Origin: a virus
Length of the DNA: 24,599 bases
Direction: 5' to 3' (one strand)
IMG/VR virus record: IMGVR_UViG_3300026186_000008
Span: 1-24,599 of that record
In this document: piece after piece, positions 1 through 21,493 of the stretch
How the letters are laid out: the number at the start of each line of letters is the position of its first letter
Position numbering within the stretch: position 1 is the stretch's first letter
Position numbers and translations under genes: made by a program
The notes under the pieces: model-generated
Told to the model about the DNA's origin: nothing
Databases searched by the model: none
The model's input: the letters and a program-made list of their open reading frames with translations, nothing else

Positions 1-33
1 ACTATTAGACAATTAAGGAAAAAAGAAACAGAT

Positions 34-207
34 ATGAAATTATCAGACCTAATCGAAGATTTACAGGAATTAGCTACCATTCATGGTAAAGATGTTGACG
101 TTGAATTTGACATTTTGATACTCAACGATAGTGTAGAAAGATTAGAATATCATGATGATGATAATAATATTACCACATCATTAGGAATTCCAATATCACT
201 CCAATAA
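34..207 (+). CDS. Small acidic phage protein, 57 aa
   Basis: A 57-residue ORF from ATG 34 to TAA 205-207. The start MKLSDLIEDLQELATIHGKD is of a kind often seen in small phage proteins of unknown function, and is followed by a hydrophobic strand pattern (VDVEFDILIL) and an Asp-rich loop. A purine-rich AAGGA at 15-19 is rather far from the ATG, with a weaker AAGAAA nearer, so initiation strength is uncertain. It ends 14 nt before the AAA+ ATPase start and is probably co-transcribed with it. I do not recognise a function; similarity to other phage MKLSDLI proteins is from memory only. Confidence 0.6.
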   Translation: MKLSDLIEDLQELATIHGKDVDVEFDILILNDSVERLEYHDDDNNITTSLGIPISLQ

Positions 208-4547: not shown

Positions 4548-5375
4548 ATGGCCATAGTAAAGCAACCAGATTGGGCAGTTGATTTAGATGAATTGGGGTT
4601 GATAAGATCTTTAAATTGGTTTAACCTAAATAGAACAACTAAATTTGCTAAAAAAGAATTTGTCAATTATATAAAGTCTAACAAACTTTGTGATGATAAA
4701 TACTTAAAGCAAGACTTTGATTTTGTAGCCACAGATGGATTTGTTTCTAGTTTACTTAGTCAAGGTTTTAGTATTCCGCATAGTTCTTTGATATATTTCA
4801 ATCGGAATATTCAAGAAACTATTAATAGTTTGATAGAAAAATATAATTCCAAGGATAAAACTAGGGCAAAAATTGTTGACAACGGCCCAAAAGTCGATTT
4901 GACTTTAGGTTTAGTTGAGCACGAAATCGATGATTTTTTAGAAGATTTTTCCAGTGATTTTAGCATGATAGAATTTTTAGCTGGCAATAGTGTTGGAGTT
5001 AATATTGCTAAAAGATATGGAAAACACTACCAAAAATACTTGGATGAATTATTTGAATCGTTTGACAAAAAATGTAGACAACTCAAAGAAGGCTATTCAT
5101 TCGCTGGAAAGCGACAATTGAATAAATATGCTAAGTTCTTAGAAGAAATTATACAGGATTGTGAAACCTACGCCAGCAGTAGACGAAAACCTAGACGAAC
5201 TTTAGGCAAGAAAATATCTGGACAAAAGTTAGGCAAGAAGTTAGACAAGAAAATTTCTGGACAAAAGTTAGGCAAGAAGTTAGACAAGAAAATTTCTGGA
5301 CAAAAGTTAGACAAGAAAAAGTTAGACATAGCTTCTACACAAGCTAATTTGGATTCTAACTTAAAGAGGTTATAA
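4548..5375 (+). CDS. Conserved T4-like phage protein with Lys-rich repeat tail
   Basis: A 275-residue protein. The N-terminal segment SLNWFNLNRTTKFAKKEFVN resembles, from memory, a family of hypothetical proteins widespread in marine T4-like phages (NWYN followed by a DAK-type helix). The middle is soluble and helical. Residues about 219-260 are a very basic tail made of a 13-residue repeat, LGKKLDKKISGQK, encoded by a 39-nt tandem DNA repeat listed separately. The tail may bind nucleic acid or be a disordered linker. Only a weak AAAGAG precedes the ATG, but the start lies 1 nt after the upstream stop. Function unknown. Confidence 0.7.
   Translation: MAIVKQPDWAVDLDELGLIRSLNWFNLNRTTKFAKKEFVNYIKSNKLCDDKYLKQDFDFVATDGFVSSLLSQGFSIPHSSLIYFNRNIQETINSLIEKYNSKDKTRAKIVDNGPKVDLTLGLVEHEIDDFLEDFSSDFSMIEFLAGNSVGVNIAKRYGKHYQKYLDELFESFDKKCRQLKEGYSFAGKRQLNKYAKFLEEIIQDCETYASSRRKPRRTLGKKISGQKLGKKLDKKISGQKLGKKLDKKISGQKLDKKKLDIASTQANLDSNLKRL
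5202..5327 (+). repeat. 39-nt in-frame tandem repeat
   Basis: Two perfect 39-nt units (5229-5267 and 5268-5306), each starting TTAGGCAAGAAGTTAG and ending GGACAAAAG, are flanked by a shortened first unit (5202-5228) and a truncated last one (from 5307). The unit length is a multiple of three, so the array keeps the frame and adds 13 residues per copy. The identity of the two central copies suggests recent duplication by slippage or unequal recombination. Confidence 0.95.
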
Positions 5376-7202: not shown

Positions 7203-7299
7203 AGAAATGCTAATGGCAGGTCAGAGATTTGAAAAAACTTTATTTGATAAATATTGCTTCAGGTACGAAATGGATGAAATTAGCCTTGACAAAGGCTAG
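7192..7299 (+). CDS. Small hypothetical protein, 35 aa
   Basis: A 35-residue ORF, starting MTIKEMLMAGQRFEKTLFD, with AAGGAAAG just upstream of ATG 7192 and an 11-nt overlap with the previous gene. Its last codons and its stop (TAG 7297-7299) are formed by the -35/dyad part of promoter P1, so coding and control sequence share the same bases. Small size limits confidence. Confidence 0.4.
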   Translation: MTIKEMLMAGQRFEKTLFDKYCFRYEMDEISLDKG

Positions 7300-7315
7300 C
7301 TGAATATGGTATAAT
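7281..7315 (+). promoter_or_regulatory. Promoter P1 with operator-like dyad
   Basis: Consensus -35 TTGACA (7286-7291), an 18-nt spacer and -10 TATAAT (7310-7315) preceded by TGG, an extended -10. A perfect 7-4-7 dyad TAGCCTTGACAAAGGCTA (7281-7298) covers the -35. Near-identical copies occur at 15532 and 19699. It is a host-RNA-polymerase type promoter, expected to start near 7322, only about 6 nt before the next ATG (7328), and it leads the ligase/ThyX module. Confidence 0.85.
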
Positions 7316-7327
7316 ATAGGTGTTATT

Positions 7328-7591
7328 ATGAAAAAGATTAAACGCAAGAAGATGATTAAGCAGTTGACCGACAAGCATTATGATTATATTGATCGTGAAA
7401 GCCAGATTAAATATATAATAAATAAGTATTATGAAAATATGGCTAAAAAAGATCTAGCTAAATGCTACAAAGAAAACATTGGGCCAATGCATTGGCCTGA
7501 TATATTTGTAATCCATAAAGGTAGGTACGTTGAATTTATGGTTAATCCAGAGAAAGAAAGAGAAAATCCAAATCAGCTTAAGCTGTTTTAA
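7328..7591 (+). CDS. Basic protein at head of P1 operon, 87 aa
   Basis: An 87-residue ORF beginning MKKIKRKKMIKQLTDKHYDY, basic at the N-terminus and mixed later, with one Trp-Pro-Asp segment (GPMHWPDIFVIHKGRYVEF) that looks like a folded beta region. No SD is seen; the predicted start of P1 transcription lies about 6 nt upstream, so the mRNA would be almost leaderless. It is the first gene of the P1 unit. I do not recognise the family. Confidence 0.6.
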   Translation: MKKIKRKKMIKQLTDKHYDYIDRESQIKYIINKYYENMAKKDLAKCYKENIGPMHWPDIFVIHKGRYVEFMVNPEKERENPNQLKLF

Positions 7592-7710: not shown

Positions 7711-7880
7711 ACATAACTAATCGAGTATACGTAGAACTTTTGGAGAAAAGAATTGTTAAATATGGAGCTCGGGTTGATGAATTAGAAAAAGAAAATAAAT
7801 CATTAAAGCAGGAAATTGAAGTTATTAATCATAATCATGATTTGACAGTAAAATGGATTAAAGGAGAACTCTGTAATTGA
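7695..7880 (+). CDS. Short coiled-coil protein, 61 aa
   Basis: A 61-residue ORF from ATG 7695, with GGGGA about 8 nt upstream. The frame is open further upstream, but that stretch overlaps the 7328 gene and reads like noise (rich in Cys, Phe and Ile), so I reject the longer form. Residues about 15-50 form a coiled coil (ELLEKRIVKYGARVDELEKE). Its TGA overlaps the TTG start of DNA ligase (TTGA), so the two are probably translationally coupled. Confidence 0.6.
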   Translation: MADSVDITNRVYVELLEKRIVKYGARVDELEKENKSLKQEIEVINHNHDLTVKWIKGELCN

Positions 7881-9058
7881 AGGAAAAGAAATTCCCTACT
7901 TTATATAAAGTAGATATTAAGGGAAAGATCAGGCATTGGACAGTGGCTACAAAGGGTGCATCTTTTTATACTGAGGCTGGAATGGTAGGCGATGAATATA
8001 AAGTGATGAAATCCAAAGCTACAAAAACAGTAGAAAAAAATGTAGACAAGAAAAATTATGTTTCAGCTGAAGATCAGGCTGAAGAAGAAGCCATGAGAAA
8101 ATGGATAGCTAGAAAAACCGAAGGATTTTATGGCACTATTGAAGAAGCAGTAAAGGCAAATAATAAAAAACCACATTTTGCTCCAATGTTAGCTGAAAAG
8201 TATACTGAAAAATTAGTTAAAGATAATTTTCCTTTGATGGTACAGCCTAAATTGGATGGGATAAGATGTATTGTACAAAAAGAAAATGATAAGCTTATAG
8301 CACGTTCCCGCAATGGTAAAGAATTTGATACACTAAAATTGATTTTAGATGATTTGATTCCATTGTTTGATAAATATCCTAATTTGATATTAGATGGTGA
8401 ATTGTACAATCATGACTACAAAGATGATTTCAATAAAATCATATCACTAGTCAGAAAGAAAAAGCCTGCTAATATGAGCAAAGCTTGGATGGATATATTA
8501 GAAGAAACCAAGGAGAAAATTCTATATTGGGTATATGATGTACCACAGGTAAATGGCCCTGAAGATATGGATATTCCTTATTATGAAAGAACTGCTGAAT
8601 TTATATATAAACTTAAAGAAACAGAACTATGGCCTGATTGTGTCCGTCAGATTCAGACATGGTGGTGTGGGAAACCTGATATGATATCTCAGTTGTATAA
8701 TACTCATGTCAGTCATGGATACGAAGGTTCAATGATTCGCCTAAATAAAGGATATGAATCTAAACGATCAAAATCGTTGCTTAAGTATAAAGAATTTTTA
8801 GATGCTGAATATTTAGTTATTGATATAGATGAAGGCAGTGGCAATCGTACTGGTACTGCCAAACATTTAGTATGTAAGGATGAAGAAACTGGTAAAATTT
8901 TCAATAGTAATATTAAAGGTAATTTTAAGTGGTATAAAGAATTACTTAATAATAAATATGATTATATAGGCAAAATGGTTACGGTGCAATTTTCAAATTT
9001 GACACCAGATGGTATACCAAGATTTCCATTTGCTACTACTTTTAGGGATTATGAATAG
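7877..9058 (+). CDS. ATP-dependent DNA ligase with WGR-like N-terminus
   Basis: A 393-residue ATP-dependent DNA ligase that seals nicks during phage replication. Nucleotidyltransferase motifs: motif I KLDGIR with the AMP-accepting Lys125; motif III LDGELYN (Glu175); motif IV EGSMIR (Glu283); motif V LLKYK (Lys303, Lys305). The C-terminal ~80 residues look like the OB fold. Residues 1-80 (LYKVDIKGKIRHWTV...) resemble a WGR domain, which in other proteins binds nicked DNA ends. I chose TTG 7877 because AAGGAG lies upstream, the stop-start overlap TTGA couples it to the previous gene, and the next Met would cut the WGR-like part. It is followed with 1-nt overlap by ThyX. Confidence 0.93.
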   Translation: MKEKKFPTLYKVDIKGKIRHWTVATKGASFYTEAGMVGDEYKVMKSKATKTVEKNVDKKNYVSAEDQAEEEAMRKWIARKTEGFYGTIEEAVKANNKKPHFAPMLAEKYTEKLVKDNFPLMVQPKLDGIRCIVQKENDKLIARSRNGKEFDTLKLILDDLIPLFDKYPNLILDGELYNHDYKDDFNKIISLVRKKKPANMSKAWMDILEETKEKILYWVYDVPQVNGPEDMDIPYYERTAEFIYKLKETELWPDCVRQIQTWWCGKPDMISQLYNTHVSHGYEGSMIRLNKGYESKRSKSLLKYKEFLDAEYLVIDIDEGSGNRTGTAKHLVCKDEETGKIFNSNIKGNFKWYKELLNNKYDYIGKMVTVQFSNLTPDGIPRFPFATTFRDYE

Positions 9059-9708
9059 TGGATGTAACATTAATTGATAAAATGGGCACTGATCTAACAG
9101 TGGTCAATGCTGCGAGGGTGAGTTTTGGTAAAAAGAAAACTAAATTTAGTAAACAAGATGAAAAGCTTATTAAGTATCTTGCTGGGCATAATCATTGGAC
9201 TCCTTTTGGCCACTGTAACTTACAATTTCATATAGTAGCTCCGATTTTTGTGGCCAGGCAACTGGTAAAACATCAGGTGGGCTTGGTATGGAATGAAATT
9301 TCTAGGAGATATGTTGATAGTGAACCAGAATTTTATCATCCAGAAGAATGGCGATTGTCAGCTGAGAATAAAAAGCAAGGTAGCAGTGATGAAATATGGG
9401 AAAGTTCAGATGAATATAATATATTGAATGATCCTTCTGTTGGTCATCAATATATATGCAATTCAGCCAAGAAGCAGTATAATTATTTGATTAAAGAATT
9501 GAATATTTGTCCAGAGCAGGCTCGGATGGTATTACCACAAAGCATGATGACAGAGTGGTATTGGTCAGGCACATTGATGGCATTTGCCAGAGTTTGTGGA
9601 CTGAGGTGTAAACCAGATGCACAAAAGGAAACTAGGATTGTAGCAGATAAAATTGATGCTATAGGTAAAGAAGAATTTCCTGTTTCTTGGAGTGCATTAA
9701 GAGAATGA
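9058..9708 (+). CDS. thyX: Flavin-dependent thymidylate synthase ThyX
   Basis: A 216-residue ThyX homologue, making dTMP from dUMP with FAD, NADPH and methylene-tetrahydrofolate. The opening VTLIDKMGTDLTVVNAARVSF is typical, as is WTPFGHCNLQF. The signature region is ARQLVKHQVGLVWNEISRRY (residues 66-85): it keeps the NE-x-SRRY half, but the usual RHRxxS half reads KHQVGLVW, so it belongs to a divergent, phage-like branch. The start is GTG 9058, overlapping the ligase stop (TAG/GTG) by 1 nt; starting at Met9 would remove conserved residues. It supplies nucleotides for phage DNA synthesis within the P1 operon. Confidence 0.9.
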   Translation: MDVTLIDKMGTDLTVVNAARVSFGKKKTKFSKQDEKLIKYLAGHNHWTPFGHCNLQFHIVAPIFVARQLVKHQVGLVWNEISRRYVDSEPEFYHPEEWRLSAENKKQGSSDEIWESSDEYNILNDPSVGHQYICNSAKKQYNYLIKELNICPEQARMVLPQSMMTEWYWSGTLMAFARVCGLRCKPDAQKETRIVADKIDAIGKEEFPVSWSALRE

Positions 9709-9737: not shown

Positions 9738-10964
9738 ATGGCTGTATATAGTGGCCCGAATATTATTACAGATGGATTAGTGTTATCTTTAGATAAGTAC
9801 AATGAAGAAAGTTATCAAGGTGAGCCGTCTACTAACCTTGTATATTATACTGGTTTGGATGCTGGTTGGGCAAAAGATTATAATACGAATATTGTGTGGA
9901 ATGATATTGACCCACCAGATGGAATAGATTCTCCTGTTGTAGGGTTTAATGATGTAGGATATCCATCTAGTCAAAATGGATCTGGTTATTGGTACTCATA
10001 TGGTGACTATTGTCCGCAAGGCCAAAGTATACAATATTCCATTTCATTGTATGTTAAAACAAATGTTACTAGTAATGTAAGTGTGAATAGTTATACTGCT
10101 GATAATACTGAGGCAGGGGATGGGGTATCGAGATATTGGAGTAATTCTCTAACTGTAACAGCGAGTGATGGATGGAAGCGTTTAGAATGGAATTTTACAA
10201 GTGCGAGTGCTGCACAATCAGACAGTTTAAGTTTTCATTGGTTAGGAATGACGGGAAAATTATGGTTATGCGCCCCACAAATGGAAGCAAATCCACATGC
10301 CACAAAATACATAAAATCTAATGATAATGGTACTACCACCACTCGTAGTGCCACTGATGGCTGGCGTGATTTAAGTGGGAATAACAATCATGCAGATTTG
10401 ACATCTTTAACATATAGTGCAACAAAAGTTCCAGGCACACTTGTCAATGATTTTAGTTTTAATGGTAGCAGTAATGGTAATGAAATAACTGTACCTAGTT
10501 CAAGCAGCGTAGAACTTACTTCAGAATTAACAGCCGAAGTATGGATGAATTGGGAAAGTGGAGCTGGAAGGTTGTTTCAAAAAGATTCATATTCTAATTC
10601 AGCAAATAGATTATGGGAAATGGGTATTTATGACAGTAAGTTTAGAATGGAAATGTGGCCTAGTAATGGTATAGGAACAACGCAATCTTCACCTAATACA
10701 CTTACTGCGAATATATGGTATCATCTTCTTATGACGTTTGATGGTATTAACATTAAAATGTATGAAAATAGTGCTCTTGTCAAGACAATATCTTTTTCAG
10801 GGGATATTCGCAGTACTAGTAGAGATATAACTATTGGCGGATCTTGGGGCCCATCTGAATATCATGATGGTTTAATATCTAGTGTAAAGCTTTATAATAG
10901 AGCATTATCAGCAGCTGAAGTACTACAAAATTATAACGCACACAAGGGAAGGTACGGACTATAA
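9738..10964 (+). CDS. LamG-domain adhesin/tail fibre protein
   Basis: A 408-residue protein of the paired-adhesin type seen in aquatic T4-like phages. It begins MAVYSGPNIITDGLVLSLD, a common opening of this group. Residues about 30-200 look like a carbohydrate-binding jelly roll. After a DLSGNNNHADL segment, residues about 240-400 form a concanavalin/LamG domain (ELTAEVWMNW, DITIGGSWG). It ends with YNRALSAAEVLQNYNAHKGRYGL-type sequence, shared with the next gene. SD AAAGGAAAG precedes ATG 9738. It is probably exposed on the virion and binds host surface glycans. The late-promoter candidate lies directly upstream. Confidence 0.75.
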   Translation: MAVYSGPNIITDGLVLSLDKYNEESYQGEPSTNLVYYTGLDAGWAKDYNTNIVWNDIDPPDGIDSPVVGFNDVGYPSSQNGSGYWYSYGDYCPQGQSIQYSISLYVKTNVTSNVSVNSYTADNTEAGDGVSRYWSNSLTVTASDGWKRLEWNFTSASAAQSDSLSFHWLGMTGKLWLCAPQMEANPHATKYIKSNDNGTTTTRSATDGWRDLSGNNNHADLTSLTYSATKVPGTLVNDFSFNGSSNGNEITVPSSSSVELTSELTAEVWMNWESGAGRLFQKDSYSNSANRLWEMGIYDSKFRMEMWPSNGIGTTQSSPNTLTANIWYHLLMTFDGINIKMYENSALVKTISFSGDIRSTSRDITIGGSWGPSEYHDGLISSVKLYNRALSAAEVLQNYNAHKGRYGL

Positions 10965-12580
10965 TGGCAACTATATGGGGCCCGAATATTGTTACTGATA
11001 ATTTAAAGCTCTATGTAGATGCAGCTAATAAGGAAAGCTATCCTCAAACTGGTACTACTTGGACTGATTTGAGTGGTGAAGGTAATGATGGAACAATTTC
11101 TGGTGCAACCCTTAGCAGTGAAAATACTAAAAATTCTGTTACTGGTGGTACAATAACTAATGATGGAGAATACATAATTCATACTTTTACCAGCACTGGC
11201 TCTACAAATTTTGTCACTGATGTCGCTTTAACTGCTGATGTTTTAATTGTTGGTGGTGGTGGAAGTGGTGGATACGCCCTTGGCGGAGGCGGAGGTGGGG
11301 GTGGTGTTGTGCATTTGCAAGGATTATCTGTTGCTGCTGGAACTCATTCAATGGTTGTTGGGGCTGGTGGTACTGGTGGATCATCTCATAGTGATGGTTC
11401 AAATTCTGCTGCATTTAGTTCTACAGCTTATGGTGGTGGTTCGGGGGGTCAATATCCAACTGATTCTGGCAATGGTGGTGGTAGTGGCGGAGGTGCTGGT
11501 TCTAATGACACTCAGCTGAGTTATGGCGGTACATCTACTAAAGGTGCATTGGGTGGTAATCCAGGCACAACGTATGGTAATGACGGTGGGGATCAAACAG
11601 CTACACGATCAGGCAGTCCAACATCTGCACGTGGTGGTGGTGGTGCAGGAGCTGCTGGTGCTGATGAAAATAGTAATAATACGGATGGTGGTGAAGGTGG
11701 AGCAGGTATTCAAATCAATATAGATGGAAATAATTATTATTGGGCTGCTGGTGGTGGTGGGTCAGGATACACTGGTTATTATGGTGGTGACGGCGGATTA
11801 GGTGGCGGTGGTGGTGCTTCAAACAACGCAGGTGGTGGTGAAACACCCGCTACTGGTGGTGGTGATGGTGGAACAGGTGGGATTAATAATGGTGCCGCTT
11901 TTTCAAGTTATGCAGGTGGTGCAGGCGGTGCGAATACTGGAAGTGGTGGCGGTGGTGGTTCTTGGAATACTGGAAGTGGTGGTGCTGGTGGTTCAGGAAT
12001 AGTCATAGTAAGGTATCACAGAAGTTTCGCCCCTAGAAGATTTTATTTTGGATTTGATAGAACCACTCCTGATTATATTGCTTTTCCTAATACACTGACA
12101 CATGGAAGTGATGGAACTATTGAAGTTTGGTTTAAAACTTCATACACAGGTAGTCTGACTTCTTATCTGTTGGGCCATCAAAACTCAACAGGTGGTACTA
12201 GTGATTTTGCAATTTTTCTGGAGCCTAGTGGTACGAGAAGAATGGGTGTTTGGGCAAGAACTCCTGCGCCCACAAGTTATTATCTTTATACAACTGGAGC
12301 TATGAATGATGGCGTTTGGCGCCAAATGGTTGTAACTTGGGGAAGTGTATCTTATGATTTGTATATTAATGGGGCTGTGATGGCCACTAACAGCTGGACA
12401 GGTTGGGGTATTGCAATAAATGGCCATTGGGCATTAGGTACAATACACGGTTCTAGCGCGGCCTCTGCGTCTTATTCTTGGGATGGTGATATTGCTGGAG
12501 CTAAAATTTATACTAGAGGATTGACACCGGCAGAAATATTACAAAATTTCAATGCACATAAGGGAAGGTACGGACTTTAA
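10964..12580 (+). CDS. LamG adhesin with poly-glycine domain
   Basis: A 538-residue paralogue of the preceding gene, starting in TAATG (1-nt overlap). Order: opening IWGPNIVTDNLKLYVDAANK and TWTDLSGEGNDGTISGA; an entry strand EYIIHTFTSTGS; a long glycine-rich region (about residues 90-350, VLIVGGGGSGGY to SGIVIVRYH); then a LamG domain (TIEVWFKTSY) and the same C-terminal AEILQNFNAHKGRYGL. Glycine-rich segments of this form in T-even gp38-type adhesins fold into packed polyglycine-II helices that carry the receptor-binding loops. The region therefore probably sets host specificity, with fast change in the loops between Gly runs. GGT codons dominate, making the DNA locally repetitive. Confidence 0.8.
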   Translation: MATIWGPNIVTDNLKLYVDAANKESYPQTGTTWTDLSGEGNDGTISGATLSSENTKNSVTGGTITNDGEYIIHTFTSTGSTNFVTDVALTADVLIVGGGGSGGYALGGGGGGGGVVHLQGLSVAAGTHSMVVGAGGTGGSSHSDGSNSAAFSSTAYGGGSGGQYPTDSGNGGGSGGGAGSNDTQLSYGGTSTKGALGGNPGTTYGNDGGDQTATRSGSPTSARGGGGAGAAGADENSNNTDGGEGGAGIQINIDGNNYYWAAGGGGSGYTGYYGGDGGLGGGGGASNNAGGGETPATGGGDGGTGGINNGAAFSSYAGGAGGANTGSGGGGGSWNTGSGGAGGSGIVIVRYHRSFAPRRFYFGFDRTTPDYIAFPNTLTHGSDGTIEVWFKTSYTGSLTSYLLGHQNSTGGTSDFAIFLEPSGTRRMGVWARTPAPTSYYLYTTGAMNDGVWRQMVVTWGSVSYDLYINGAVMATNSWTGWGIAINGHWALGTIHGSSAASASYSWDGDIAGAKIYTRGLTPAEILQNFNAHKGRYGL

Positions 12581-12585
12581 TCACA

Positions 12586-12849
12586 TTGTTAAATGATAAT
12601 GTTAGGCACCATTCAAACTATGTTAGTAGTCAGCAAGTTATACATAAATGTTTAATAACATATCAAGGAATTTTTAGGAATATGCCTTTTGGTTGGTATG
12701 TTCAGAATGTATATGATAGTGTTAATAGAAAAGGATATAATGTTTCTTTAGAAGAAGTAGTCAAAACAGTACATCATTTTTTAAAAGATGATATTAATAT
12801 ATGCCCTCATTGCTATGATGGCACACTTAAAGGAGAAAAAAAGAAATGA
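12586..12849 (+). CDS. Small protein with CPHC motif, 87 aa
   Basis: An 87-residue ORF that opens at TTG 12586; no clear SD is present and an internal ATG (MPFGWYVQNVY) is possible, but the upstream residues (HHSNYVSSQQVIHKCLITY) look coding. It is rich in His and aromatic residues and ends with NICPHCYDGTLKGEKKK, where CPHC may bind zinc with upstream His. The stop overlaps the next ATG by 4 nt. Function unknown. Confidence 0.55.
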   Translation: MLNDNVRHHSNYVSSQQVIHKCLITYQGIFRNMPFGWYVQNVYDSVNRKGYNVSLEEVVKTVHHFLKDDINICPHCYDGTLKGEKKK

Positions 12850-15451: not shown

Positions 15452-15554
15452 AGAGAAAAATGATGATCAAATGGCACGATATATAGCATCACGCAATCGT
15501 GTTTTAAAAGAAATTTTAAAAAGATTGAAATTAGCCTTGACAAACGCTAGCTGA
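15441..15554 (+). CDS. Small protein ending in promoter P2, 37 aa
   Basis: A 37-residue ORF overlapping the previous stop, starting MKNKEKNDDQMARYIASRNR. It is basic and helical. Its last seven codons are formed by the conserved P2 block, ending in GCTAGCTGA, so the promoter is embedded in coding sequence, as at P1. No strong SD; coupling is likely. Small size limits confidence. Confidence 0.4.
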   Translation: MKNKEKNDDQMARYIASRNRVLKEILKRLKLALTNAS

Positions 15555-15566
15555 ATATGGTATAAT
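15532..15566 (+). promoter_or_regulatory. Promoter P2 with operator-like dyad
   Basis: -35 TTGACA (15537-15542), 18-nt spacer, -10 TATAAT (15561-15566) with upstream TGG. The dyad TAGCCTTGACAAACGCTA (15532-15549) has one mismatch compared with P1. Transcription should start near 15573, giving an 18-nt leader with purine-rich SD before ATG 15591, and would run into the tmRNA and the genes after it. Confidence 0.85.
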
Positions 15567-15590: not shown

Positions 15591-15824
15591 ATGTTTAAGG
15601 CAAGAGTTGATATGTTGAATCCTAAGCTTGAGCTTGAAGTTGTGACTCCGACTTATGATGAAACAGTGAAATTGTTGGATTCTCTTATTGAAAAGTTGAA
15701 GCCAAAATCAAGTGATGTCTATTCATCAGGATATGATATCAAATTAGATGTATTAGAAAATGATAGTAGTGGATTGAAGATTACTACTTCGGATGAAAAA
15801 CTTAATACTCATATGGACTTGTAA
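15591..15824 (+). CDS. Small protein upstream of tmRNA, 77 aa
   Basis: A 77-residue protein beginning MFKARVDMLNPKLELEVVTP, with alternating strands and a helix DETVKLLDSLIEKLKP, suggesting a compact alpha/beta fold. GGAAAAGGG and AAAAAGG lie before the ATG. It is the first gene after P2 and its stop abuts the acceptor end of the tmRNA, so RNA processing must cut close behind it. Function unknown. Confidence 0.65.
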   Translation: MFKARVDMLNPKLELEVVTPTYDETVKLLDSLIEKLKPKSSDVYSSGYDIKLDVLENDSSGLKITTSDEKLNTHMDL

Positions 15825-16145
15825 TCGCTTGAGTTTGAGTTGTTGGTATTTTGGACGCCGGTTCGACTCCGGCCAGCTCCACCATTATGGGGCTGTAATT
15901 GGAATTCGACAGGATATGACAATGATGAGGACAAGATTACCTGTGGTGGCAACAGCCAGAAAGTTGCAAACAAACAATTGGCAACAACCAATTAAAAATG
16001 GCTGCTTAAAAGAGATAGCAAGCCGGGGTTTGGTCAATACCTGTCAACAGAAATTGACCATTTTAAATCACATTCCCTTGGTGATACCAAGCTGATGTGA
16101 TGAAGGATAGCCGGCCGTCCTATAAGATACAAGTGGCCGGCGCGA
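15825..16145 (+). ncRNA. ssrA: Circularly permuted (two-piece) tmRNA
   Basis: tmRNA that rescues stalled ribosomes. The 3' acceptor part comes first: TTTTGGAC, T arm GCCGG-TTCGACT-CCGGC (15857-15873), CAGCTCC (15874-15880) and encoded ACCA. After only TTAT (15885-15888) comes the 5' part: GGGGCTG (15889-15895) pairs with CAGCTCC over 7 bp, then TAATTGGAATTCGACAGG, as in bacterial tmRNA 5' ends. Best tag frame: GGC 15980 to TAA 16007-16009, GNNQLKMAA, with an A-rich strand before it and the stop in hairpin GGCTGCT/AGC-A-AGCC (P5). Later: hairpin 16031-16060, nested hairpin 16067-16101, and a GC-rich pseudoknot (AGGA/TCCT, GCCGGCC/GGCCGGC, 16104-16141). The outer ends are estimates. Maturation would yield separate acceptor and coding RNAs. 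Confidence 0.92.
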
Positions 16146-19694: not shown

Positions 19695-19698
19695 AAAT

Positions 19699-19733
19699 AG
19701 CCTTGACAAACGCTAGCTGGATATGGTATAATA
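19699..19733 (+). promoter_or_regulatory. Promoter P3 with operator-like dyad
   Basis: -35 TTGACA (19704-19709), 18-nt spacer and -10 TATAAT (19728-19733) preceded by TGG. The dyad TAGCCTTGACAAACGCTA (19699-19716) equals that of P2. Transcription is expected at 19740-19742, which is the ATG of gp33 itself, so the message would be leaderless. It drives the replication/late-control trio. Confidence 0.87.
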
Positions 19734-19740
19734 GAGTATA

Positions 19741-20001
19741 ATGAAAAATGGGATAACTGAAAAGGACTTTTTGGAATTGACTAACGCTCATACTCCTAAA
19801 TCCTTTTCACTAGAAATTGAGAATATAGTTTTTAAAAACCAATCTAGTTATATAGAAGCGGTTTTAGAATATTGTAAAGAGAAAGAAATAGACATGTCTA
19901 TTATTCCAAAGTTAGTTAATAGACAGTTAAAGGATAAACTTGAAACTGAGGCTAAAAAGCTTAATTTTATTGTAGATAATACAGTTGAATTGCCAATATG
20001 A
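19741..20001 (+). CDS. 33: Late transcription co-activator gp33
   Basis: An 86-residue homologue of T4 gp33, which links RNA polymerase (beta flap) to the sliding clamp to activate late promoters with gp55. The helical core SSYIEAVLEYCKEKEIDMSI followed by LVNRQLKDKLETEAKKLNFI matches the T4 pattern (MSYLEATTAFLEENSIPETQ...IIEKIQSEA). Gene order 33-59-32 is that of T4. The 4-nt overlap ATGA with gp59 is also as expected. No SD is present; promoter P3 seems to start at the ATG. It is shorter than T4 gp33 (112 aa) at the N-terminus. Confidence 0.7.
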   Translation: MKNGITEKDFLELTNAHTPKSFSLEIENIVFKNQSSYIEAVLEYCKEKEIDMSIIPKLVNRQLKDKLETEAKKLNFIVDNTVELPI

Positions 20002-20612
20002 CAGCATTTGAAGTATATAAAGTTTATTTGGCTGTAAAATTACATTTTACAAGTGAACATTTTGATATGACTAAAGGAACAGGTGGAGTTAGATGTAAAG
20101 AGATTACGTTCAATAAAAGGCAAGATTGTCATTTTTTTGAACGATTGAGTAGAAAGTATCGTTCAAGCGAATTATTGGGTTTGTTTGTTTCACATTTTGT
20201 TTCCGAATCACAATTTAATAAATTGTACGGAGATGATGCAGATGATACATACAAAGAATGGAAAAAACGCATACAGAGAATGTCCTACACGTTTGAAAAT
20301 GATATCAAATCACTGAATGAAGTGACTGATAATTTTGATAGTTTATTTTCTGTTAATGGATCTGGTTGGCCAAAATTGTTTGATTTACAAAGGATTGATG
20401 ATATATCTATTGAAACGTTTGTTATAATGGATAAATTGTTAGACTTTATTTCACAATTTGACGCAGATATAAAAGAAACACGTCGATGGCCACAAACAAG
20501 CTTGACTTGTAGGAAATATTCAAAATTTCTTCAAGTTGATGAAAGTAAATATCGTAATATACTACGCAATACAGTAGTAATGAATAAGCAGCAACTACAA
20601 GCAGCAATATAA
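19998..20612 (+). CDS. 59: Helicase loader gp59
   Basis: A 204-residue homologue of T4 gp59, which binds fork DNA and gp32 and loads the gp41 helicase. Matching segments include FEVYKVYLAVKLHFTSEHFD (T4 GKSVYKLYLMIKQH), KRQDCHFFERLSRKYRSSEL (T4 KRRDKYFFQKLSEKYKLKEL), a YKEWKKRIQRMSYTFENDI helix and ISIETFVIMDKLLDFI. Length is close to T4's 217. It overlaps gp33 and precedes gp32, the conserved cluster. It works at origins and recombination forks with the proteins from the next gene. Confidence 0.88.
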   Translation: MTAFEVYKVYLAVKLHFTSEHFDMTKGTGGVRCKEITFNKRQDCHFFERLSRKYRSSELLGLFVSHFVSESQFNKLYGDDADDTYKEWKKRIQRMSYTFENDIKSLNEVTDNFDSLFSVNGSGWPKLFDLQRIDDISIETFVIMDKLLDFISQFDADIKETRRWPQTSLTCRKYSKFLQVDESKYRNILRNTVVMNKQQLQAAI

Positions 20613-20629
20613 AGAATAAGAGGATACAT

Positions 20630-21493
20630 ATGTCTAGTTTTGCACAAATGAAGCAGAATCGCCAATCTCAACTCGCCAATTTAACAACTGAATTAGAAAA
20701 AACACAAACTGTCACCAGTTTTGTTGATGATCGCATTTGGAAATGTGAACGTGATAAATCTGGTAATGGATATTCAGTTATTCGATTTTTACCTCCGAGT
20801 GAAGGTGAAGATTTACCTTGGGTACGAGTATGGGATCATGGATTTCAAGGGCCAGGTGGCTGGTACATTGAAAATTCATTGACAACCCTACAACAAAATG
20901 ATCCAGTTTCAGAATACAATACATCATTGTGGAACAATGGTACACAAACTGGAAAAGATCAAGCACGTAAACAAAAGCGGCGCTTGAATTACTATAGTAA
21001 TATTTTAGTTATCAAAGATCCAGCTAATCCTGAAAATGAAGGTGAAGTTAGAATCTTTCGGTATGGTAAAAAAATCTTTGATAAGATTAATGATGTGATG
21101 AATCCAGAATTTGAAGATGAATCACCTGTTAATCCTTTTGATTTTTGGGAAGGCGCTAATTTTAAAATCAAAGTTAGGATGGTTGAAGGATATGTCAATT
21201 ATGATAAATCTGAGTTTGATCCAATTGCACCTTTAGCTGGAAGTGATGAAGAACTTCAATCAGTATGGGAGAAGCAATATCTATTGAATGATTTCCTAGC
21301 AGCTGATAAGTTTAAAAGTTATGGTGAATTGAAAGCCAAGCTCAATCGAGTATTGGGTATTGGTATTGATGATGCTGAAGATACGTCTACACCATTTACT
21401 GAAACTGAGGAACCTGAAATTCCAGCACAGGCTGCAGGAGAATCTACTGAAACACTTTCTTATTTTCAGAAGTTAGCTAACGAAGAATATTAA
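20630..21493 (+). CDS. 32: ssDNA-binding protein gp32 (zinc ligands missing)
   Basis: A 287-residue homologue of T4 gp32, coating single-stranded DNA in replication, repair and recombination. Conserved parts: GNGYSVIRFLPPSEGEDLPW, HGFQGPGGWYIEN, YYSNILVIKDPANPENEGEV, FRYGKKIFDKI, FDFWEGANFKIKVRMVEGY and DKFKSYGELKAKLN. The N-terminal LAN-like basic segment and an acidic C-terminus for protein contacts are present. T4 binds zinc through a CPVCQY region; here it reads DPVSEY (91-96), and only Cys39 remains in the core, so zinc is probably not bound. SD AAGAGGAT precedes ATG. A strong terminator follows. T4 gp32 represses its own translation; no such leader was identified. Confidence 0.95.
   Translation: MSSFAQMKQNRQSQLANLTTELEKTQTVTSFVDDRIWKCERDKSGNGYSVIRFLPPSEGEDLPWVRVWDHGFQGPGGWYIENSLTTLQQNDPVSEYNTSLWNNGTQTGKDQARKQKRRLNYYSNILVIKDPANPENEGEVRIFRYGKKIFDKINDVMNPEFEDESPVNPFDFWEGANFKIKVRMVEGYVNYDKSEFDPIAPLAGSDEELQSVWEKQYLLNDFLAADKFKSYGELKAKLNRVLGIGIDDAEDTSTPFTETEEPEIPAQAAGESTETLSYFQKLANEEY

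Follow-up and report, generated by a model that had tools for sequence, protein, structure and literature searches.

Why should a promoter keep the same spacer at three distant places of one phage genome? In the window analysed here, which is the whole of the virus record IMGVR_UViG_3300026186_000008 (24,599 nt, 24.6 kb), a promoter-like block recurs almost unchanged before three gene groups. The initial annotation proposed that a protein recognizes its conserved spacer, together with a dyad that embraces the -35 hexamer, and so unites DNA repair, tmRNA and replication genes in one regulon. The comparisons described below point, with good confidence, to another answer: the three copies, P1, P2 and P3, would be strong sigma-70-type promoters of a family specific to a T4-like lineage, spread and shuffled as cassettes, in which the GCTAGCTG spacer marks a copied subclass.

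Three copies of one promoter block

Judged by its gene content, which includes gp33, gp59, gp32, an exonuclease, a ligase, ThyX, a baseplate hub protein, a permuted tmRNA and further T4-like families, the window represents part of a T4-like phage genome, and the nearest relatives of its gp32 are those of marine T4-like phages (cyanophages and HTVC008M). The three blocks lie on the plus strand, as do the genes that follow them. P1 (7274-7322) precedes an 87-aa ORF without known family (7328-7591), after which come an ATP-dependent DNA ligase (7877-9058, phrog_114) and the thymidylate synthase ThyX (9058-9708, phrog_85), so that 'DNA repair' describes its target only loosely. P2 (15525-15573) is followed by a 77-aa ORF, also without known family (15591-15824), and by the permuted tmRNA gene (15792-16100). 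The first gene after P3 (19691-19739) encodes a gp33-like late-promoter regulator (19741-20001, phrog_254), followed by a gp59-like helicase loader (19998-20612, phrog_269) and a gp32-like ssDNA-binding protein (20630-21493, phrog_224). The T4 late promoter word TATAAATA occurs on neither strand of the window, against 6.3 occurrences expected in shuffles.

Some other features of the window deserve mention. A permuted tmRNA of the two-piece type is also found in the relative L001 (5506-5695, minus strand), which retains P2 upstream. Directly upstream of P3 lies a flagellin-like phage ORF (18846-19694) with both the N- and the C-terminal domain (PF00669 and PF00700), and similar DNA occupies the equivalent place in L018, L020 and L243. 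Three in-frame 39-nt tandem repeats (5202-5318) form the end of a 275-aa ORF without assigned function, and relatives carry insertions or deletions in this repeat region. Finally, two neighbouring proteins with Laminin_G_3 domains (9738-12580), both terminating in HKGRYGL, are possible structural or adhesion proteins.

P1 is made up of the upstream sequence ATGAAATTAGCC, the -35 hexamer TTGACA (7286-7291), a spacer with the core AAGGCTAGCTGAAT (7292-7309) that ends in the extended -10 element TGG, the -10 hexamer TATAAT (7310-7315) and a leader starting with ATAGG. The hexamers of P2 lie at 15537-15542 and 15561-15566, those of P3 at 19703-19708 and 19727-19732. Each copy matches the hexamers at 12 of 12 positions and has an 18-bp spacer, the extended -10 TGG and the common GCTAGCTG spacer; over 35 positions P1 differs from P2 once and from P3 twice. 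A 31-base consensus, TTGACAAASGCTAGCTGRATATGGTATAATA, has exact matches at 7286, 15537 and 19703 of the plus strand, and no further copy with three or fewer mismatches exists in the window, where none is expected by chance (100 shuffles). The pattern TTGACA-N14-20-TATAAT has three matches in the window, namely P1, P2 and P3, against 0.16 expected, and a matrix built from 49 family members (members 30-65 bits, shuffles below 0) gives the three copies 59-65 bits and nothing else in the window more than 12. The near-identity of the block at three sites, as first noticed, is thus confirmed, and the positions assigned to the first two copies were correct; in the third, TAGCC begins at 19698 rather than 19699. 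The dyad TAGCCTT-GACA-AAGGCTA is, as described, perfect in P1 (7281-7298), while in P2 and P3 a C in place of G leaves it with one mismatch.

Mini-ORFs upstream of P1 (7192-7299) and P2 (15441-15554) stop within the promoter spacer, at the TAG or TGA of GCTAGCTGA; their ends, KLALTKAS-stop or KLALTNAS-stop, fall inside the spacer (P1 of the relative G009; P2), and promoter and possible coding sequence thus overlap there. The spacer could on this account be conserved merely as the end of upstream ORFs, an idea that was rejected: as the gene upstream of P3 stops short of the promoter, overlap with coding sequence is no general cause of spacer conservation.

A wider promoter family in related contigs

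When 2.9 million viral contigs were scanned, first for the GCTAGCTG block and then, blind to the spacer, for CCTTGACA-N14-ATGGTATAAT, the window plus 17 related contigs of IMG/VR were found to hold 50 distinct promoters that follow one design, GTGAAAWTARCC-TTGAC(A/T)-18 bp-ATGGTATAAT-ATA. An A-rich upstream part ends in TARCC, and the leader, beginning with ATA, is A-rich as well. TTGAC(A/T), the 18-bp spacing and ATGGTATAAT are invariant, apart from two single-base exceptions in ATGGTATAAT, and across the 50 copies conserved positions begin about 12 bases before the -35 and extend a few bases past the -10. Only the middle of the spacer varies, falling into about 11 classes: GCTAGCTG, the commonest, GGTCAAGG, CCCCTG/CCCCC, GGGTAGCGCC, GCTAC and others. 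Inverted copies of the -35 arm (GTCAAGG, TGTCAA) are seen in spacers, for example at G004:46358, G012:14083 and G015:1880. Palindromes, AAAACAGCTGTTTT or AAAAGAGCTCTTTT, adjoin CCCC-class promoters on their upstream side (G004 at 45977 and 46648, L234; G009 at 12676, L238), and the two differ by a paired change that preserves the palindrome. A long dyad found in G002, G004 and G005, TGTCAAGGCTAAATTTAGCCTTGACA, is no separate element, being two divergent promoters back to back.

Copies can be dense: the 47.7-kb contig G004 has 12, six of them inside 2.2 kb, mostly preceding small ORFs. In the window, the leader of a fourth family promoter occupies positions 1-34 (plus strand) and begins with ACTATTAGACAATTAAGG, its -35 and -10 lying beyond the contig end; the promoter is complete in G003, G004 and G009 and belongs to the CCCC spacer class. 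The assembly probably broke within this repeat, as such repeats would break other assemblies of these phages.

Members with other cores precede, in the relatives, a gp47-like nuclease, a clamp loader, a primase-like protein, DNA methylases and many small ORFs, names that were read from the sequences themselves. Even in the same neighbourhood of G004 and G005 the promoter cores differ, as do the first genes. Outside this group the block was not encountered: a search of one genome per species in 84,980 bacterial and archaeal species gave no match, and hence no link to a host or prophage, and the 58-bp block returned chance-level matches only (E 0.4 or worse) among 50,697 phage records. The sequence comparisons confirm the feature and show it to be mostly ordinary: a new promoter family, peculiar to this lineage, that by its sequence is of the T4 early type. 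Promoter activity, early timing and reading by the host polymerase we infer by analogy with T4-type phages: host RNA polymerase most likely uses the family promoters early in infection, when replication, nucleotide and small uncharacterized genes would be expressed.

Promoters as recombination seams

Pairwise contig alignments and inspection of the junctions show promoters at the seams of rearrangement. At G009:12457, the left part and core of the promoter at G004:46358 continue into the right part of the one at G004:46665, with its leader and the gene after it; the crossover falls within a shared stretch, ATATGGTATAAT, and the 98-aa gene that separates the two promoters in G004 is missing from G009. 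The promoter at G009:12672 likewise joins the left of G004:45994 to the right of G004:46138. The 97.5%-identical G017 lacks a 442-bp segment whose end in G005 coincides with the clamp-loader promoter, and the region immediately upstream of P1 varies in length among the window phage (G000), G003 and G009. Out of 28 breakpoints, listed by hand from the alignments and some perhaps sharing one event, eight are no more than 50 bp from a promoter, where 0.9 would be expected for random places and 1.4 for gene starts; none of 5000 simulations reached eight. At their flagellin/gp33 junction the more distant relatives L017, L018, L020 and L243 have no P3, so that it was either inserted in the window lineage or lost elsewhere as a unit. 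Together these observations are good sequence evidence that the promoters act as recombination seams.

In the scheme that we favour, the family would have been dispersed through the genome as short cassettes, and the identical stretches (ATATGGTATAATATA and flanks) would supply homology for recombination, which may delete, swap or add small genes between copies; the hybrid junctions are its visible products. The GCTAGCTG spacer would then mark one copied subclass of the family, possibly under mild selection, rather than a regulon-wide operator. With this family, the early promoters of an uncultured T4-like phage group gain a clear sequence signature, by which operons can be marked and contigs joined where they break at promoter repeats; the window itself ends in such a repeat. 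At base level, the hybrid junctions show that short promoter repeats can be seams for the gain and loss of small genes without the terminator of the PeSL cassettes discussed below.

Is the conserved spacer an operator?

In its operator form, the proposal holds that the GCTAGCTG spacer and the -35 dyad are bound by a phage or host protein, which makes P1 to P3 a regulon within the promoter family. The dyad is the part that fares worst. It is perfect only in P1 of the window phage and of the 95%-identical G009, and in nearly all remaining GCTAGC copies C replaces the G of the perfect form. The ortholog of P1 in G003, AAACGCTA, whose downstream flanks are 84-88% identical, breaks the dyad in the manner of P2 and P3; the perfect dyad is therefore not a conserved feature, neither kept in orthologs nor common to the member promoters, and a protein-binding role for it is not supported.

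The spacer itself has more in its favour. When orthologs of P1 to P3 were sought through the proteins encoded downstream, so that the promoter played no part in the search, none of the close ones lacked a GCTAGC core; the divergence in close relatives that would speak against a bound protein was thus absent, every close ortholog found having kept this spacer. The 14 core positions of P3 are unchanged in G001, G008 and G011, where the flanks differ by about 15%. Across five ortholog pairs, GCTAGC cores changed at 3 of 70 positions against 10.6 expected from the flanks (P = 0.007), numbers that are small and include one pair (X) with poorly aligned flanks. Other core classes changed at 20 of 112 positions against 10.4 expected, a difference from the GCTAGC cores with a Fisher p of 0.010; restricted to P1 to P3, the 2 core changes against 5.0 expected are not significant. 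These figures suggest selective constraint on the GCTAGC core, and plain copying does not explain why such cores diverge less than their flanks. In addition, pairing between spacer and -35 arm recurs in several unrelated classes and exceeds that of shuffled cores (p up to 0.013 when each class is represented once), as in CCTTGAC-AATG-GTCAAGG, TTGACA-CAGCTA-TGTCAA and TTGACA-ATTGAGG-TGTCAA.

Against an operator stand, besides the G003 ortholog, the other core classes, which in the same genomes precede comparable genes (clamp-loader-like and gp47-like), so that the GCTAGC class is not separable by function. GCTAGC is, moreover, no promoter-only word, a notion dropped in view of its further occurrences away from promoters in G000, G003, G004 and G009, and no candidate regulator was identified. 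Spacer identity among the copies is largely explained by cassette copying and recombination, and the evidence for a spacer-specific ligand is weak. What survives of the proposed regulon is one promoter family placed before several unlinked gene groups; the spacer is not their common feature. An operator common to P1, P2 and P3 is accordingly unlikely, and the sequence of the block is that of a sigma-70 promoter of early type, specific to the lineage, rather than of a three-site operator.

A broader version would treat the promoters as recombination cassettes without terminators whose core classes (GCTAGCTG, GGTCAAGG and others) form a second layer of information, the cores, several of which make a dyad with the -35 arm, being read by a phage factor or acting as DNA or RNA hairpins. 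Taken as a whole this reading is rather improbable; if the core classes were informative, recombination between promoters would rewire gene content and control class together.

Comparison with known promoters of T4-like phages

Promoter early stem-loop (PeSL) cassettes of T4-like phages are reportedly the subject of work by Arbiol in 2010 and Comeau in 2014. As cited in PMC4503421, PeSLs are cassettes of a promoter and a terminator stem-loop that mediate gene exchange in T4-like phages. The present copies resemble them as repeated promoters at which small genes are gained, lost and swapped, with the promoter-proximal breakpoints and the two hybrid G009 promoters as evidence; a few CCCC-class copies also have an upstream palindrome, and hairpin formation is possible in some spacers. 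The promoters described here differ in that 53 of 54 have no adjoining terminator stem-loop: a terminator-like hairpin lies within 120 bp upstream of a single one, against a background of 0.8% of random 120-bp windows. As the defining terminator is missing, the family is PeSL-like in one respect and is not classed as PeSL, and it is very unlikely that the copies are true T4-type PeSLs.

Most improbable is that P1 to P3 are middle promoters of the T4 MotA/AsiA type, which a phage factor would switch on to express replication genes: the downstream gp33, gp59, gp32, ligase and ThyX belong to the replication and nucleotide genes, a type expressed by T4 in its middle period, but all three copies keep a perfect TTGACA where T4 middle promoters have a MotA box in place of the -35 (PMC2988021), and profile searches for MotA and AsiA gave no match in 11 contigs, which are fragments, nor in control genomes, so that their negative outcome carries little weight.

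The family of strong sigma-70-type promoters favoured here finds its closest counterpart in the early promoters (Pe) of T4-like phages. These follow a consensus that differs from phage to phage, is conserved also at positions outside the hexamers and stands in front of core early genes as well as novel ORFs and tRNA genes (PMC1524935, PMC2988021). All three window copies present a good -35, TGn and -10 for host sigma-70 polymerase, and the 50 family members share a phage-wide consensus that extends past the hexamers and recurs many times ahead of early genes and of novel ORFs; in each sequence feature that was tested, the family fits the T4-type early promoters. With those of T4, RB69, RB49, RB43, 44RR and Aeh1 it has in common the sigma-70 -35, the extended -10 and the A-rich upstream part, as well as a consensus proper to each phage, with numerous copies in front of early genes, new ORFs and RNA genes. 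It differs from them in its own consensus TARCC-TTGACA, its rigid 18-bp spacer, its ATGGTATAAT element and the division of its spacer cores into classes.
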